The notes under the pieces were generated by a model. It saw only the letters and a list, made by a program, of their open reading frames with translations, had not been told where the DNA came from and did no database searches. A stretch of 42,091 bases of DNA, from the NCBI GenBank assembly GCA_903819565.1, contig CAIJDY010000102.1, positions 1 to 42,091 on the forward strand, written 5' to 3'. Positions within the stretch are counted from its first letter, which is position 1; each line of letters starts with the position of its first letter. The DNA is from Candidatus Omnitrophota bacterium (lineage in GTDB: Bacteria > Omnitrophota > Omnitrophia > Omnitrophales > Aquincolibacteriaceae). The position numbers and the translations under genes are program-made. Shown here piece after piece: positions 12,713 to 39,431 of this stretch.

Positions 12713-13747
12713 TCACCCGCCGTAATATTTCCGCTTGAACCAAAGCGAGACCCCGACAAGGCTGATCAAAACAGGCACTTCCACGAGCGGGCCGATCACG
12801 GCCGCGAACGCGGCGCCGGAATGGATTCCGAAGACCCCCACAGCCACCGCGATCGCCAGCTCGAAGTTGTTGCTCGCGGCGGTAAAGGACAACGTGGCCG
12901 ATTGGCCGTACGGCGCGCCGATCTTTTTGCTCATAAAAAAAGAGATCAGGAACATCACGACGAAATAGATGAGGAGCGGGACCGCGATCCGCACGACATC
13001 CAACGGGATCTTTACAATATATTCCCCTTTCATGGAGAACATGACGACGATCGTGAAAAGCAAAGCGACGAGCGTGACGGGGCTGATCGACGGGATAAAT
13101 CTTGTTTCATACCAGGTTTTGTCCTTGATCCTGAGTAAGGCGAATCGCGTCAGCATCCCCGCGAGAAAAGGAATCCCGAGATAGATAAAAACGCTTTTGG
13201 CGATCTGCCCCATCGTGACATTCACTGCCACGCCTTGCAAACCGAACCAGCGCGGCAGGACCGTGATAAAAACCCAGGCATAAACGGAGAAAAAAAGGAC
13301 TTGGAAGATCGAGTTAAACGCCACAAGCCCCGCGCAATATTCCGTGTCGCCTTCAGCCAAGTCGTTCCAGACAATGACCATCGCGATGCAGCGCGCGAGG
13401 CCGATCATGATAAGCCCGACCATGTATTCCGGATAGCCGCGCAGGAACGTAATCGCCAGCACGAACATCAAGGCGGGACCGATCACCCAGTTCTGGACCA
13501 GGGACAGCAGCAGGACTTTCGTATTTTTGAACACGTCGCCGAGCTCTTCGTATTTCACTTTGGCGAGCGGCGGGTACATCATGAGAATAAGACCGATCGC
13601 GATGGGAATATTCGTCGTCCCGGCCTGGAACTTGTTCCAGAAACCCACGACCGGCGGATAGAAATACCCGGCCGCGACGCCAACGCCCATGCCGCAAAAG
13701 ATCCAGAGCGTCAAAAACCGGTCCAAAAAAGATAATTGTTTCCTCAT
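12713..13747 (-). CDS. acr3: ACR3-family arsenite (metalloid) efflux transporter
   Basis: [37 protein letters not shown] and [21 protein letters not shown], with the conserved TM4 Cys and the NNFE Glu. ATG at 13747 overlaps the DUF134 stop; the track start at 13777 is probably too early. Confidence 0.92.
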
Positions 13748-14049
13748 TTTTGATTCTCCGGGGATGTCCTGCAACACCCTCCCTCGATCTTGATGCCGTG
13801 GTTATGGACCAATGCATTCGCGACTTTCTTCCGCGCGGAGGCAAGGATCCGGGAAACGGTCGAGCGGTGCACTTTCATCTTCCCGGCCGCGGCGTCCTGT
13901 TCCAGGCAAAGCAGATCGCAAAGACGAAGGGCCTCGAGCTCATCCATCGTTATTTGGGTCACCACAATATCCTTGCGGGGCACATGGACCGGACGGAAAC
14001 ACCGGTCCCCCGGCTTGCAGCCCACCCACCGCGTCTTTTTAGGTCTCAT
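13744..14049 (-). CDS. DUF134/UPF0251 predicted HTH DNA-binding protein
   Basis: [51 protein letters not shown] (sigma-like HTH), Cys near both ends; GGAGG RBS. Confidence 0.9.
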
Positions 14050-14061
14050 CCCCGCCTCCAG

Positions 14062-14105
14062 TTATGCACATATGTGCATAATACACGCGAAAAATCCTTT
14101 GTCAA
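14062..14105 (-). promoter_or_regulatory. sigma70-like promoter with overlapping palindromic operator for the DUF134-acr3-tolC-RND operon
   Basis: Minus strand: TTGACA (14105-14100), 16 bp, TATTAT (14083-14078); perfect 20-bp palindrome TTATGCACATATGTGCATAA at 14062-14081 overlapping the -10 and lying just upstream of the GGAGG RBS. Confidence 0.8.
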
Positions 14106-15837: not shown

Positions 15838-16275
15838 TTATTCGAAGCCGAGCAGCCGACCGCCCTGATAAACCAGGAACGAACTCATCCAAGCGAGCCC
15901 TCTCATATAAGCGATCATGAAGAACAGCCAGCCCCAAGAACCGGCCTCTCGTTTAACTACGGCAAATGTCGAGAAACATTGACACGCCAGCACGTAGAAG
16001 ACCATCAGCGAAACCGCCACCAGCGGCGTGTAGAGCGGCTTGCCGGTTTCGGGGTCGCGCTCCCTCTGAAGCGCCTCGATCAGCCCCGCCGTCATCCCCT
16101 CGCCCTCGGTCTTGACATGGTGGCCGATCGCGAGAGTGCTAATAAGAAGCTCGCGCGCCGCAAAAGACGTGATAATCCCGATCTCCCAATTGAACCCGAG
16201 CGGGCGGATCAAGGGCTCGATTCCTTTGCTGCAATGAGCGTAAAACTCAAGCCTGTCGCTTACTTCTTCCGACGA
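15838..16275 (-). pseudogene. FeoB C-terminal remnant (Gate/core transmembrane region only, no G domain)
   Basis: Frame open from the TGA at 16278-16276: SSEEVSDRLEFYAHCSKGIEPLIRPLGFNWEIGIITSFAARELLIST...PLYTPLVAVSLMVFYVLACQCFSTFAVVKREAGSWGWLFFMIAYMRGLAWMSSFLVYQGGRLLGFE. Matches the FeoB C-terminus; no GTPase domain upstream; only a TTG at 16212 as possible start. Confidence 0.8.
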
Positions 16276-16415
16276 TCAAGACCTTGGAGCTTATTACAGG
16301 AACCTTTGGAGCCGCACCCCGCACATTCATCACCTTCCTTGATGCTTTTTTTCAAGCCCCGCACCAAGTAGAAAACTGCAGCCCCTCCGATTAAAACAAC
16401 AAAAAAAATATCCAT
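16260..16415 (-). CDS. FeoB-associated Cys-rich membrane protein (first copy)
   Basis: Not in ORF track. MDIFFVVLIGGAAVFYLVRGLKKSIKEGDECAGCGSKGSCNKLQGLDRRKK*; one TM and CAGCGSKGSC; directly downstream of feoB. Confidence 0.82.
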   Translation of the reverse strand: MDIFFVVLIGGAAVFYLVRGLKKSIKEGDECAGCGSKGSCNKLQGLDRRKK

Positions 16416-16428
16416 AAACACTCCTTCC

Positions 16429-18660
16429 TCAAGTGCCGAAGCCCAAAAATCTTCCGCCTTGAAATATCAAAAAAGCGACCACCCAAGCAAGCCCAAGACT
16501 GTATCCCACTGCGAACAACGTCCATTTCAGCGAGCCGAGTTCTCGATACATCACACCAAGCGTTCCTATGCATGGAATATAAATGAGCGTAAAAAACATG
16601 AATGCGAGCGCCGATAAAGGCGTCATTTCCTTCCTAAGAGCCTCTCGCAACCCTTCGCTGTCCGCCGCCGCATCGCCCCCCACCTGATACAGGACTCCGA
16701 AAGTGGAAACGACTATCTCTTTCGCGGCGATTCCGGTGATCAAAGCGATCCCGCCGCGCCAATCAAAACCCAGCGGACGGATGACCGGTTCTATCCACTG
16801 ACCCAGATGTCCCGCATAACTTTTCGATACCCGTTCTTTTTCTTTCCGGGCCTTGATCCCCGAGACCTCCGCCATCATGGCCTCCGCGGACTTCCGCTTC
16901 TGGGCCGCTCCGACCGATGTCGCGATCTTCGCTTCATAGCGGGTCTTCGTCTGTGCGATCGCCCGATCGAAATCCATGGAGTAATCGACGTTCCTCGGAA
17001 ATGCCGAAAGAAACCAAATGATCACCGAAGCCGCCAGAATAGTGCCACCGACCTTGCGAACGAAAACAGACCCTTTTTCCCACATGTGAATCATCACACT
17101 CTTAAAAAGCGGCCAGCGATAAGGAGGCAGCTCCATCACAAAGGGGGCCGTTTCGCCTTTGAAGATTGTCCGGCGGAAAAGTTGGCCGACCAGAATGGCG
17201 AGTACAAGTCCCGTCACGTAGATCCCAAAGATAAGGTTGCCCGCTTGTTGCGGGAAAAAGGCCCCGGCCAACAGAATATAAACGGGCAGCCGCGCGCTAC
17301 AGCTGACAAGTGGATTGATCAGGATGGTGAGCATACGATCGGATTTATTTTCCAAGGCCCGCGCGGCCATAATGGCCGGCACGTTGCAACCGAACCCCAT
17401 CACCATGGGGATAAACGATTTTCCGTGTAACCCTAGGGTGTGCATAATCCGGTCCATAATGAATGCGGCGCGTGCCATATACCCCGTATCTTCAAAAAGG
17501 GAGATAAAGAAAAAAAGGATCAGGATATTCGGAAGAAATACCAGCACCCCCCCCACCCCCGACACGATGCCGTCCACCACCAGCGCCTTCAACAATCCCT
17601 CCGGCATGACGCCGTTAAGAAAAGTCGCCAACAAGCCTACCCCGGAATCGATCCAATCCATCGGATAAGCACCTAACTTAAAGGTTGTCTGGAACATCAA
17701 CCATAGAAATCCGACAAGAATGGGAATCCCCAATAAACGATTGGTGACAATCTTGTCGATCTTGTCCGAAAGAGAGCGCCGGCCAGCGGCTTTTTCGTGA
17801 AAAACCTCCAGCAAAAGCCCCTTGATGAAACCGTACCGCCGGTCGGCCAACAAGATCTCCGACTCTTCGTGCAGGATCGTTTCGATATGTTTGTGACTTT
17901 TTTCAAGCTGCTCCAAGATTCCTTGGGCATTCGCGGAGGTTTTTTGTATATGCTCTTTGATACTCCCGTCATGTTCCAATAATTTGACCGAAAGCCAGCG
18001 CGTTGAATAGGCCGCCGTCAATGCCGGATCTTTTCGCATTTCCGCCTGGATCTTCCGAATCTCCTCCTCCACTTCGATCCCATAATTGATATGTAGGTGC
18101 CGTGACACAGGCTCTTCTTTTTCCGCGACTGCGACAATCTCTTTGAGAAGCTCCTGAAACCCAATGCCCCGGTTGCCCACCATGCTCACCACAGGCATTC
18201 CCAAAAGCTTGGCCAATAATTCCTTATCTACCGAAAGACCCTTATGTTCCGCTTCATCCGACATGTTGAGCGCAATCACGGCCCTCGCGCCCAGTTCGAT
18301 CAGCTGCGTCGTTAAATAAAGGTTCCGGTCCAGATTGGTAGAGTCGACCACATTCACCACGACATCCGGCCGCTCTTTAATGATGTAATCCCGGGCCACT
18401 ATCTCTTCCATGGAGTAAGCCGTCAAGCTATAAGTGCCCGGCAGATCGACGAACTCGATCTGATATGGGCCGAAGTTCGCGTGGCCGATCTTTTTCTCGA
18501 CCGTGACGCCCGCCCAATTCCCGACATGCTGGTTCCCTCCGGTCAATTCATTAAAGATACAGCTCTTTCCGGAATTGGGGTTTCCGCAAAGACCGACCTT
18601 GAGGATCTTTTTTTTATCTTCTGCCACCCAATTCTTCGCTTTAAGCGCTTGTGTCGACAT
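16429..18660 (-). CDS. feoB: Ferrous iron transport protein B
   Basis: 743 aa; GNPNSGKSCIFNELTGGNQHVGNWAGVTVEKK, DLPGTYSL, MGFGCNVPAI, LINPLVSCSARLPVYILLAGAFFP. Confidence 0.97.
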   Translation of the reverse strand: MSTQALKAKNWVAEDKKKILKVGLCGNPNSGKSCIFNELTGGNQHVGNWAGVTVEKKIGHANFGPYQIEFVDLPGTYSLTAYSMEEIVARDYIIKERPDVVVNVVDSTNLDRNLYLTTQLIELGARAVIALNMSDEAEHKGLSVDKELLAKLLGMPVVSMVGNRGIGFQELLKEIVAVAEKEEPVSRHLHINYGIEVEEEIRKIQAEMRKDPALTAAYSTRWLSVKLLEHDGSIKEHIQKTSANAQGILEQLEKSHKHIETILHEESEILLADRRYGFIKGLLLEVFHEKAAGRRSLSDKIDKIVTNRLLGIPILVGFLWLMFQTTFKLGAYPMDWIDSGVGLLATFLNGVMPEGLLKALVVDGIVSGVGGVLVFLPNILILFFFISLFEDTGYMARAAFIMDRIMHTLGLHGKSFIPMVMGFGCNVPAIMAARALENKSDRMLTILINPLVSCSARLPVYILLAGAFFPQQAGNLIFGIYVTGLVLAILVGQLFRRTIFKGETAPFVMELPPYRWPLFKSVMIHMWEKGSVFVRKVGGTILAASVIIWFLSAFPRNVDYSMDFDRAIAQTKTRYEAKIATSVGAAQKRKSAEAMMAEVSGIKARKEKERVSKSYAGHLGQWIEPVIRPLGFDWRGGIALITGIAAKEIVVSTFGVLYQVGGDAAADSEGLREALRKEMTPLSALAFMFFTLIYIPCIGTLGVMYRELGSLKWTLFAVGYSLGLAWVVAFLIFQGGRFLGFGT

Positions 18661-18894
18661 TCAATTTTTCCCTTCGTGAAGAGCGATGTGAATATGATGA
18701 GCGACCTTCCGATCGATCGCGATCCTGGCCCCCGAAAGCCCGACGATCAAATGGTCCCCGACGGCACGCTGGATCATTTCAACGGTGCGTCCGAAAACAA
18801 ACCCGAGCCCTGAAAGATACTGTCGCATCTTCGGCTGACCGGTCAGCAGGACCACTTGGGCCTTTTCACCGATCCCCAATAAGGTAAGCGTCAT
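18661..18894 (-). CDS. feoA: FeoA family protein
   Basis: 77 aa; SH3-like FeoA core (MRQYLSGLGFVFGRTVEMIQRAVGDHLIVGLSGARIAIDRKVAHHIHI); abuts feoB. Confidence 0.9.
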   Translation of the reverse strand: MTLTLLGIGEKAQVVLLTGQPKMRQYLSGLGFVFGRTVEMIQRAVGDHLIVGLSGARIAIDRKVAHHIHIALHEGKN

Positions 18895-18900
18895 TTCTTT

Positions 18901-19134
18901 TCAACCTCCCTGCATTCGTTCCACCTGAACATCATTCGCTTCCTCGCGCCGCAACGATAAATGGTAACCTTTCAGGACCAACTCCATGGGATCCCCCAGG
19001 GGGGCGACCTTCTCGACATAAAGCTCGGTCCCTTTCACAAATCCCATTTCCAGTAATCGTTTCTTGATCGCCCGCTCGCCCGTAACCTTGACGATGCGGC
19101 ACTTTCCGCTCACTTCAAGTTCACTTAGCTTCAT
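18901..19134 (-). CDS. feoA: FeoA family protein (second copy)
   Basis: MKLSELEVSGKCRIVKVTGERAIKKRLLEMGFVKGTELYVEKVAPLGDPMELVLKGYHLSLRREEANDVQVERMQGG; start overlaps the fur stop (alternative ATG at 19143). Confidence 0.9.
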   Translation of the reverse strand: MKLSELEVSGKCRIVKVTGERAIKKRLLEMGFVKGTELYVEKVAPLGDPMELVLKGYHLSLRREEANDVQVERMQGG

Positions 19135-19636
19135 GGTTCTCATGAACGGCCCTCCTCGCGCCCTTTTCCACGTTATTCGAGCACCGGGCACACTCGACAA
19201 ATAACCGGTGATCATGGTAGATCAGCTTGCACCGGTGTTTCTCGCAAAGTTTTTGTTGCAAAGCCTCAAAGGCTTCGCTCCTAAATTCGACGATCGTTCC
19301 ACAATGGACACAGATCATGTGGTCATGATGGCCCCCGGCTTCCATGTTTTCAAAATACTCCCGCTTACCTTCCCCAGCGGACTTTTGAACCCTCCCGGCT
19401 TCTAGCAGCAACGGAAGATTCCGGTAAACAGTGTCGCGGGAGATCGGCAACCCCTTCGCCTTGAACCGCTCAAACAGTTCGTCAGCATCAAAATGATTAT
19501 TCATCGAGGCGACCTCTTCGTAGATCTTCTGCCGTTCCAGGGTGACTTTGAGGCCTTTCTTTTTAAGAAGCTCCGCAAAGGCCGCCTCACCCCCGCCCCT
19601 CCCTTTCCCCAAAGATCGTTTTCGTCCTGTTCTCAC
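19121..19636 (-). CDS. Fur family transcriptional regulator
   Basis: GLKVTLERQKIYEEVASMNNHFDADELFERFKAKGLPISRDTVYRNLPLLLEAG, GHHDHMICVHCGTIVEF, FVECARC; GTG start after GGAGGGG. Confidence 0.92.
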   Translation of the reverse strand: MRTGRKRSLGKGRGGGEAAFAELLKKKGLKVTLERQKIYEEVASMNNHFDADELFERFKAKGLPISRDTVYRNLPLLLEAGRVQKSAGEGKREYFENMEAGGHHDHMICVHCGTIVEFRSEAFEALQQKLCEKHRCKLIYHDHRLFVECARCSNNVEKGARRAVHENHEAK

Positions 19637-33860: not shown

Positions 33861-34724
33861 TTAAAAAGGCATCTTCAGTTTATTCTTGAGGGCCGACGCG
33901 GCTCCCTTGACCTCGCCCGTCACCGCGCCCGCGGTTTCTTTTAAAGCCCCTTCCGCCTGACCCGCGATCTGTCCGGAAACGTTTCCGGAGGCAGAGGTCA
34001 CCTTTTCCATGCCCATCGCGAACGATTGCCCGGCCATGTCCGTCGCGGAACCGAGGATTCCGGAGACGCTGCTCTCCAATCCGCCCAGATTGAAACCGCT
34101 GAGCATCGCGAGCGGTGTCTTCATCATGACCTTCCAGACGATCAGCTCCACCAGTTTATTGGGATCGGTGATATTGGTGTATTTTTCGTCCAGCCCGACG
34201 TTGAAATCTTTGGTGACGGGACTGCCGCCCGAATAATCCACATAGGACGCCGTCCCGACCCGGAGTCGGAAATTATCGATCTGGATCGCGGGCGCTTTCC
34301 CCGCTTTCGCAGGTGCCGGCTTTTTTCCCGGCTGGGAAGGTTTCTGCGCCTGGAGCGCCTTCAGGGAATCCAGGTTCAACTGGCGTTTTTCATTCTTAAC
34401 GACCGAGAACTGCTTCAGATCGAATTCCAGATCCGTCAGGTGGATCTTTCCTTTCAAAATACTCTGAAGGTCATAGGCCACGAAGATCCGGGGGATCTCG
34501 ACAAAAGTCGTGCTGTGGAAGCCCGCGGGATTCCTGAGCACAAGATCTTCGATGTCAAAATAAGGCTGCGTCAGGCCCAGGTCGAGCTTTTTAATAGTCA
34601 ACGGCATGCCGGTCACGGCCCGGACACCGTTCTCCACGGCCGCCTTAACGACGGTGTTACGGGCGAGCACCAAAATCGCCAACGTGATAAATACAACGAG
34701 AAAAAGATCCGCTATTTTTTTCAT
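33861..34724 (-). CDS. AsmA/DUF748-like membrane-anchored protein
   Basis: 287 aa; N-terminal [31 protein letters not shown]...[14 protein letters not shown] layout typical of AsmA-like proteins. Confidence 0.65.
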
Positions 34725-38138: not shown

Positions 38139-39431
38139 ATGACAGCTCCTCTAAAGCAAGAACGCGGTTTTGTTTTAATCCTGTCCTTGTTGTGCATTTT
38201 TCTAGTAACGGCCTTCTTGGCATCTTTTTTCGTGATCGTAAGCGGCGGTGTCAAACAGGCTACCCGGATGACGGACAACATGCGCGCTTATTATATTGCG
38301 GACGCTGGGCTCACTTATGGCTTTACACAGCTGAGAAATCAAGCCAATCCGCCGGATGAAACTCTTAATTACAACAACGATAAATATTACGTTGATGCAG
38401 ACAAAAAACGCTTCGGAAGTTACGCGGTCAAGATCACGAACGATGGGGCGACTTCTTGTCGGATTTACACATTGGAATCGCGGGGCGTTTTTGGTAATGC
38501 GACAAAAACCCTGACGCTCACCGCCCATACGGGCTCCATGGCTGAATGGAGTTATCTCAGCAAGTCCGAAACGTCTCCTGCCCTGGGGAAACTGTGGTGG
38601 GTCACAGGAATGGTCACGTCGGGAAAAGTTCACACAAACGATCAGCTGAACATCTTTGGCAATCCCGATTTTGAAGGTCCGGTCAGCCAAACGAAGACTG
38701 CCATTAACTACTATCACGGAGGACCGCCCAAGGACAATCCGAACTTCGAAGAGGGAATTACGCTGGGCGCCAGCGAAATTGCTTTCCCGTCAACAACCAT
38801 GCTGTCCCCTATCCAGAGCGGTGCAAGCAAGGACCCGAAATATTCCCTGAAAGGTGAGACAAGCATTGTGTTAAACGCTGACGGCACCATGACCGTGAAG
38901 AACAGCGGAAAAACAAGTACTTTGCCGATGCCCTCGAGCAAAGCCGTTTATGTCGCCGACGGTAACGTGAATGTCCAAGGACAGCTGAACGGCCAGCTTA
39001 CGATCGGCACCAATTCCACAATCACGATCACTGAAGACATCACCTATAAATCCAATCCCAGGCTACCAGGATCTACAAGCACTGATACGCTGGGGCTGGT
39101 GGCAAAAGGAGATGTCATCATCTCGAAAAATGCTTCCCCGAAAAATAACGGCATTGAAATCGACGCTTACATCGTTTCCACCGACGGATCCTTTAAAGTT
39201 GAAAACTACGGAACCGGCTTCAAAGGAGATATGGTTCAGTTTGGCGGCTTGGCAAATAGCGTCTGCGGCCCAACGGGCGTCGTGGATTCTTCCGGAAATG
39301 TAAAAGCTGGTTATAACCAGCTTCAATATTACGACGAACGATTCAAAAAGACGGCACCACCCTTGTTTCCGCCCATCCGAAGCACGGATGGCAGAGCCGT
39401 ATATTCTAGAGACAGTTTTAGCGAAAGTTAA
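38139..39431 (+). CDS. PilX-like pilus assembly protein (cassette 1)
   Basis: ERG|FVLILSLLCIFLVTAFLASFFVIVSGG...MRAYYIADAGLTYGFTQLRNQ; 430 aa. Confidence 0.78.
   Translation: MTAPLKQERGFVLILSLLCIFLVTAFLASFFVIVSGGVKQATRMTDNMRAYYIADAGLTYGFTQLRNQANPPDETLNYNNDKYYVDADKKRFGSYAVKITNDGATSCRIYTLESRGVFGNATKTLTLTAHTGSMAEWSYLSKSETSPALGKLWWVTGMVTSGKVHTNDQLNIFGNPDFEGPVSQTKTAINYYHGGPPKDNPNFEEGITLGASEIAFPSTTMLSPIQSGASKDPKYSLKGETSIVLNADGTMTVKNSGKTSTLPMPSSKAVYVADGNVNVQGQLNGQLTIGTNSTITITEDITYKSNPRLPGSTSTDTLGLVAKGDVIISKNASPKNNGIEIDAYIVSTDGSFKVENYGTGFKGDMVQFGGLANSVCGPTGVVDSSGNVKAGYNQLQYYDERFKKTAPPLFPPIRSTDGRAVYSRDSFSES

Follow-up and report, generated by a model that had tools for sequence, protein, structure and literature searches.

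A promoter-overlapping palindrome as the probable operator of DUF134, a putative repressor at the head of an ars operon in Omnitrophota

The present analysis suggests that the 20-bp palindrome TTATGCACATATGTGCATAA, located upstream of a DUF134 gene in the window (the whole stretch of 42,091 nucleotides analysed), is an operator at which DUF134 represses an ars operon including its own gene, and that proteins of one Cys4 clade are released from such operators by an arsenical. The probability of this reading is put at about 0.75, in the absence of binding, expression, or metalloid data. It draws on operator conservation, an exclusive location in cis to DUF134, a code relating recognition helix to half-site, promoter overlap, and ars linkage, all of which were computed.

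The DUF134 gene of the window (13744-14049, minus strand) encodes a helix-turn-helix (HTH) protein of 101 aa of the Cys4 type (C11, C17, C92, and C93) with the recognition helix HRSTVSRIL, as evidenced by its match to PF02001 (E 1.9e-18, 67.2 bits against a cut-off of 27), its AlphaFold model, and its DeoR-like fold. It is translationally coupled through an ATGA overlap to acr3 (12713-13747, minus strand), encoding an arsenite efflux transporter (TIGR00832, E 2.7e-137), the ATG of which overlaps the DUF134 stop codon. Beyond acr3, co-oriented genes with overlaps or short gaps encode an outer-membrane efflux protein (OEP, PF02321; 11278-12666), an RND transporter (ACR_tran, PF00873; 8060-11281), and a small YgaP-like TM membrane protein (PF11127; 7854-8063), all on the minus strand. 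The RND gene overlaps the OEP gene, and the start of the YgaP-like gene overlaps the RND stop. The OEP gene, also found near acr3 of relatives, and the RND gene, likewise found near relatives, likely belong to the DUF134-acr3 operon, and the YgaP-like gene likely ends it. The closest relatives are Candidatus Omnitrophota MAGs. In addition, a feo region adjoins the ars operon (15838-19636), with a FeoB-like fragment (15838-16212), FeoB, two FeoA, and a Fur-family gene.

The palindrome (14062-14081) is identical to its own reverse complement, so the perfect 20-bp palindrome described in the first-pass annotation was borne out, as was the placement of its outer TTAT inside a TATTAT -10 element, 16 bp from TTGACA. 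On the minus strand upstream of DUF134, the -35 hexamer TTGACA (14105-14100) and the -10 hexamer TATTAT (14083-14078) are separated by a spacer of 16 bp and score 11/12, and the final four bases of the -10, TTAT, are the initial four of TTATGCACATATGTGCATAA. The position of the promoter relative to the operator is conserved, and the overlap in the window, with an offset of -2, is the commonest arrangement among 105 sites. The perfection of TTATGCACATATGTGCATAA is not decisive alone, because the window contains two more perfect palindromes of similar length (33972-33989, 18 bp; 39304-39323, 20 bp), both within long ORFs and probably due to chance. The decisive evidence is conservation, namely one copy in the 2.1-Mb genome, even with three mismatches allowed, and recurrence at the equal place before DUF134 orthologues.

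A scan upstream of other DUF134 genes, proposed earlier as a check, was run and found the palindrome conserved: the TTATNNNCATATGNNNATAA form, scoring at least 20 of 24 within 250 bp upstream of DUF134, preceded 107 of 171 DUF134 genes and none of 3420 shuffles. The genes were drawn from five groups, Omnitrophota and four whose names rest on the titles of seed records (Nitrospirota, Chloroflexota, Deltaproteobacteria, and Clostridia), which are samples and not the outcome of an exhaustive search, and DUF134 start codons were picked automatically. The distance from operator to start codon had its mode at 35 bp. Six Omnitrophota orthologues retrieved by protein search (L002-L007) carried the same palindrome or an other-armed form 32-41 bp before the start, and homologues in other phyla (L008, L009, and L011; n = 3) likewise carried one of these forms at that distance. 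The operator was recognisable for all 45 Cys4 DUF134 genes (42 scoring at least 20, two scoring 18-19, and one lying about 430 bp upstream). A site was recognised directly upstream of only 4 of the 29 Clostridia DUF134s, some of which have one before the preceding gene.

The operators were also confined to the vicinity of DUF134, a gene that 64 of the 116 Omnitrophota genomes in the sample contained. A search of these 116 genomes with the GCAC/GAAC pattern, covering both ars-type operators, returned 34 sites, all upstream of DUF134 (34/34), including two sites in a genome (G056) with two such DUF134 genes; the reversed pattern, used as a control in the same genomes, returned none. A global regulon of the GCAC/GAAC operator was rejected, as all sites were in cis to DUF134. 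Across the other 803,550 positions of the retrieved loci there were eight operator matches of at least 20/24, and by coordinates most of these precede a DUF134 gene by no more than about 1.1 kb. DUF134-type operators farther upstream were seen at L121:458, L131:957, L169:933, L179:795, L186:708, and L193:667, as if they preceded another gene and DUF134 were second in the operon.

In 37 of the 39 loci of the Omnitrophota Cys4 branch, DUF134 preceded ars genes (counted as ACR3, ArsP_1, an ArsM-like methyltransferase, or an LMWPc/ArsC-like protein), compared with 3 of 115 for other DUF134s, and two Cys4 loci lacked recognised ars neighbours. The Fisher value for this linkage was not corrected for kinship and is hence inflated, and the linkage is not phylogenetically replicated because Cys4 is one clade in one phylum. 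Cysteines at alignment columns 9, 15, 90, and 91 (C11, C17, C92, and C93 in the window) were found in 93-98% of ars-linked DUF134s, with the C-terminal CC at 0.93-0.98 in the ars-linked clade and rare elsewhere. ArsR was near only 2 of 45 ars-linked DUF134 loci. Among Omnitrophota acr3 genes, 30 of 57 had DUF134 upstream within 8 kb, and an ArsR-like gene adjoined acr3 in 0/20 DUF134-linked loci versus 3/10 unlinked ones. Control of the ars operon by DUF134 is considered quite likely. Moreover, Thioredoxin_3, DsbD_2/CcdA, and an unnamed 143-aa protein recurred in Cys4-DUF134 ars loci. The last (L050:+2510, relative to the DUF134 start, and 16 similar loci) has a signal peptide-like start, a CPSC motif, and no Pfam match, and beside DsbD_2/CcdA and Thioredoxin_3 it is possibly a periplasmic thiol partner.

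With regard to the signal, known ArsR proteins bind As(III) by three Cys whose placement varies from type to type, and two suffice for MAs(III) (PMC11868830). By analogy, C11, C17, C92, and C93 could supply an arsenical site. Two properties expected of an arsenical regulator are present, the position at the head of an ars operon and the possession of at least two to three conserved Cys, the ligand role of which is not shown. The AlphaFold model, built from a 12-sequence alignment, had a pLDDT of about 90-95 in the HTH core, and the Cys-bearing ends (residues 1-14 and 92-101) were predicted to be disordered (pLDDT <50). Because the termini are of low confidence, the geometry of any such site cannot be judged and the sensing step rests on context. 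Arsenical sensing by these Cys, inferred from genomic context and the cysteine pattern without metalloid data, is therefore favoured only with modest confidence; the metalloid sensing suggested in the first-pass annotation gains from both lines of evidence (37/39 versus 3/115) and remains undemonstrated.

It is also possible, if unlikely, that DUF134 autoregulates the ars operon but that its Cys respond to redox, to Fe-S status, or to some other thiophilic metal, a signal that may also apply to Nitro_FeMo-Co-linked DUF134s. The occurrence of other DUF134 classes with Nitro_FeMo-Co, DUF5320, P-loop ATPase, and MBL genes, and without ars genes, would suit such a signal, as would the Trx and CcdA genes of many ars loci, which suggest thiol redox, but the C-terminal CC is limited to the ars-linked clade and tracks ACR3, ArsP, and ArsM. 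The ancestral DUF134 signal was probably not arsenic, because other classes adjoin non-ars genes. For the Cys4 clade of Omnitrophota, an arsenical is the preferred signal: a trivalent form, As(III) or methyl-As(III), would most likely bind the conserved Cys (C11, C17, and the C-terminal CC) and release the repressor, turning on the efflux genes when needed. Both ligand and release mechanism are inferred.

The arrangement of operator and promoter bears on the mode of regulation. A promoter scoring at least 10/12 was detected near 91 of 105 operator sites, compared with 2.8% in shuffles, and at 73 of the 105 the first base of the -10 fell in the range from -10 to +2 relative to the operator. A site over the -10 and start site normally blocks polymerase. 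Autorepression, the simplest reading, is inferred because the operator sits on the -10/start site of DUF134's own promoter, and, without expression data, we are fairly confident that DUF134 represses its own gene. It is proposed that a DUF134 dimer, itself an inference, would insert its HRSTVSRIL recognition helices into successive major grooves of TTATGCAC-ATAT-GTGCATAA, cover the -10 and the probable start site, and silence the DUF134-acr3(-OEP-RND-YgaP) operon, its own gene included. Sequence alone does not reveal the sign of regulation, leaving room for DUF134 as an activator or anti-activator at the palindrome, but this is very unlikely because the site overlaps both the -10 and the transcription start of promoters close to consensus.

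The identity of the binding protein could be addressed through the half-sites, which varied with the recognition helix. The helix HRST[VI]SR was associated with GCAC, SRPTFSR with GAAC, SQQTFSR with GAGT, SRQTFGN with TGGC or TAGC, SRQTFGR with GAGC or GGGC, SRGTVQR with GTGC, and ARTTV with TGAC. According to mutual information, base 5 was best predicted by column 65, bases 6-7 by column 61, and base 8 by column 60, corresponding to R67, S63, and R62 of the window protein, respectively, all on the recognition helix. At column 65, R specified G and N specified T at base 5, while at column 61 S corresponded to CA, P to AA, Q to AG or GG, and G to TG at bases 6-7. Since protein and site are inherited together among relatives, a tree was built without the helix and path-disjoint pairs were taken. 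In these independent contrasts, the base changed in 4/5 pairs differing at column 65 versus 0/12 same-residue pairs (p = 0.002), and in 10/18 pairs differing at column 61 versus 0/17 same-residue pairs (p = 0.00024). The rule derived from Omnitrophota also held in other phyla, with GAAC for RPTFSR (L151) and TGGC for RQTFGN (L152 and L153). Within the Cys4 clade, P at column 61 occurred with GAAC, GAGC, or GGAC and S with GCAC, without exceptions, and a single A occurred with GAGT.

This co-variation implies that DUF134 itself is the binder and the palindrome its autoregulatory operator. In combination with operator conservation, it supports the earlier claim that DUF134 autoregulates via the palindrome, and we hold with strong confidence that DUF134 binds TTATGCACATATGTGCATAA, although there are no binding data. 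Recognition of TTATGCACATATGTGCATAA by another regulator, such as an ArsR, Fur, or CRP/FNR protein, might be considered since promoter-spanning palindromes are generic and fur and feoAB lie 2-5 kb off in the window, but it is scarcely credible when half-site changes track DUF134 helix residues, all 34 sites are at DUF134 with none elsewhere in the genomes, and an ArsR gene is seldom found close by. The further perfect 18-20 bp palindromes in reading frames of the window might suggest that TTATGCACATATGTGCATAA forms an RNA hairpin or arose by chance, but both readings can be discounted almost entirely in view of conservation, promoter overlap, and protein co-variation. The hairpin is rejected by a leader without a stable fold (z 0.35) and by the promoter position, since transcription would begin too late to include most of the left arm, and chance is rejected by the single genome copy together with conservation.

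Outside the Cys4 clade, DUF134s (L106, L148, L165, L188, and others) were found with Nitro_FeMo-Co (34 loci), DUF5320, P-loop ATPase, MBL, and C_GCAxxG_C_C genes, and their operators suggest that they regulate those neighbours. Two Nitrospirota DUF134s (L120:268 and L113:1500) with an RGT helix and without the C-terminal CC lie by an ArsP-like gene (L120) and an SBF/ACR3-like transporter gene (L113), possibly a second, distinct connection between DUF134 and metalloid transport. Loci of the QQTFSR class (e.g., L019 and L025), with zero Cys, have a neighbourhood that is fixed in the lineage and includes a divergent Y-family DNA polymerase-like gene. Only one distant plasmid record carried a plasmid-borne DUF134. 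No functional paper on DUF134/UPF0251/PF02001 or its link to ars was found among the open-licence papers searched. Our tentatively favoured overall picture is that DUF134s are widespread local autorepressors with a readable code (columns 60, 61, and 65 to bases 5-8), of which one Omnitrophota branch gained the Cys4, senses arsenicals, and replaces ArsR. A domain of unknown function in bacteria and archaea is thereby assigned a specific biochemical role, and since its operator can be predicted from the protein, that function is directly testable; the code can also be used to find targets of the Nitro_FeMo-Co-linked DUF134s. If the Cys4 branch does sense arsenicals, this mostly uncultured phylum would hold an arsenic repressor whose scaffold is not related to that of ArsR, and a compact new biosensor part would be gained.

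Among known systems, a family profile search pointed to the DNA-binding domain of Bacillus subtilis DeoR (7bhy; E 2.9e-7 over 38 residues, helix ISRPTVSRLL); a single-sequence search for a solved DUF134 structure found none. The window protein, as modelled by AlphaFold, superposed on 7bhy at 0.6-0.7 Å over 40 columns, and the Foldseek E-values were weak (0.1-0.3), as expected because the domain is so short. The last R of RPTVSR, which we take to be R39 of DeoR, corresponds to the DUF134 residue that determines base 5, and the DUF134 code for RPTxSR predicts TTGAAC, the DeoR half-site, which gives independent structural backing to recognition of the palindrome by DUF134. DeoR (RPTVSR) binds TTGAACA in its operator ATTGAACAAAATTTCAAT, where R39 contacts G4 (PMC11229326). 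This SorC-family protein (7bhy / 8r7y) thus shares with DUF134 the HTH, the half-site TTGAAC of the RPTFSR-class operator TTATGAAC, a G-to-C spacing between half-sites of 11 bp across the dyad, and R39 on the G that column 65 predicts. Unlike DUF134, DeoR has a large sugar-phosphate effector domain, is a tetramer, and lies outside ars operons (PMC11229326), whereas DUF134 has about 100 aa and no effector domain; the window protein (101 aa, PF02001 alone) has the DeoR-type HTH expected of the SorC/DeoR family and lacks its C-terminal sugar-phosphate effector domain.

Besides DeoR, the best fold matches to DUF134 were the HTHs of sigma-70 region 4 and ECF sigma4, domains that bind asymmetric -35 elements within RNA polymerase, whereas the sites of DUF134 have dyad symmetry and lie over the -10. 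Within the family itself, the PF02001/UPF0251 proteins near Nitro_FeMo-Co (PF02579) and DUF5320 have the same operator architecture with other half-sites, and differ in having neither the Cys4 pattern nor ars genes. No ArsR/HTH_5 winged-helix domain was detected in the window DUF134, for which PF02001 was the sole match and DeoR and sigma4 the nearest structures. ArsR repressors (R773, AfArsR, CgArsR, and ArArsR; PMC11868830) are similarly small and Cys-bearing, stand at the head of ars operons, and bind their own promoter, but they are winged-helix proteins with their own Cys triads and without detected similarity to DUF134, which has a sigma-region-4/DeoR-like HTH.
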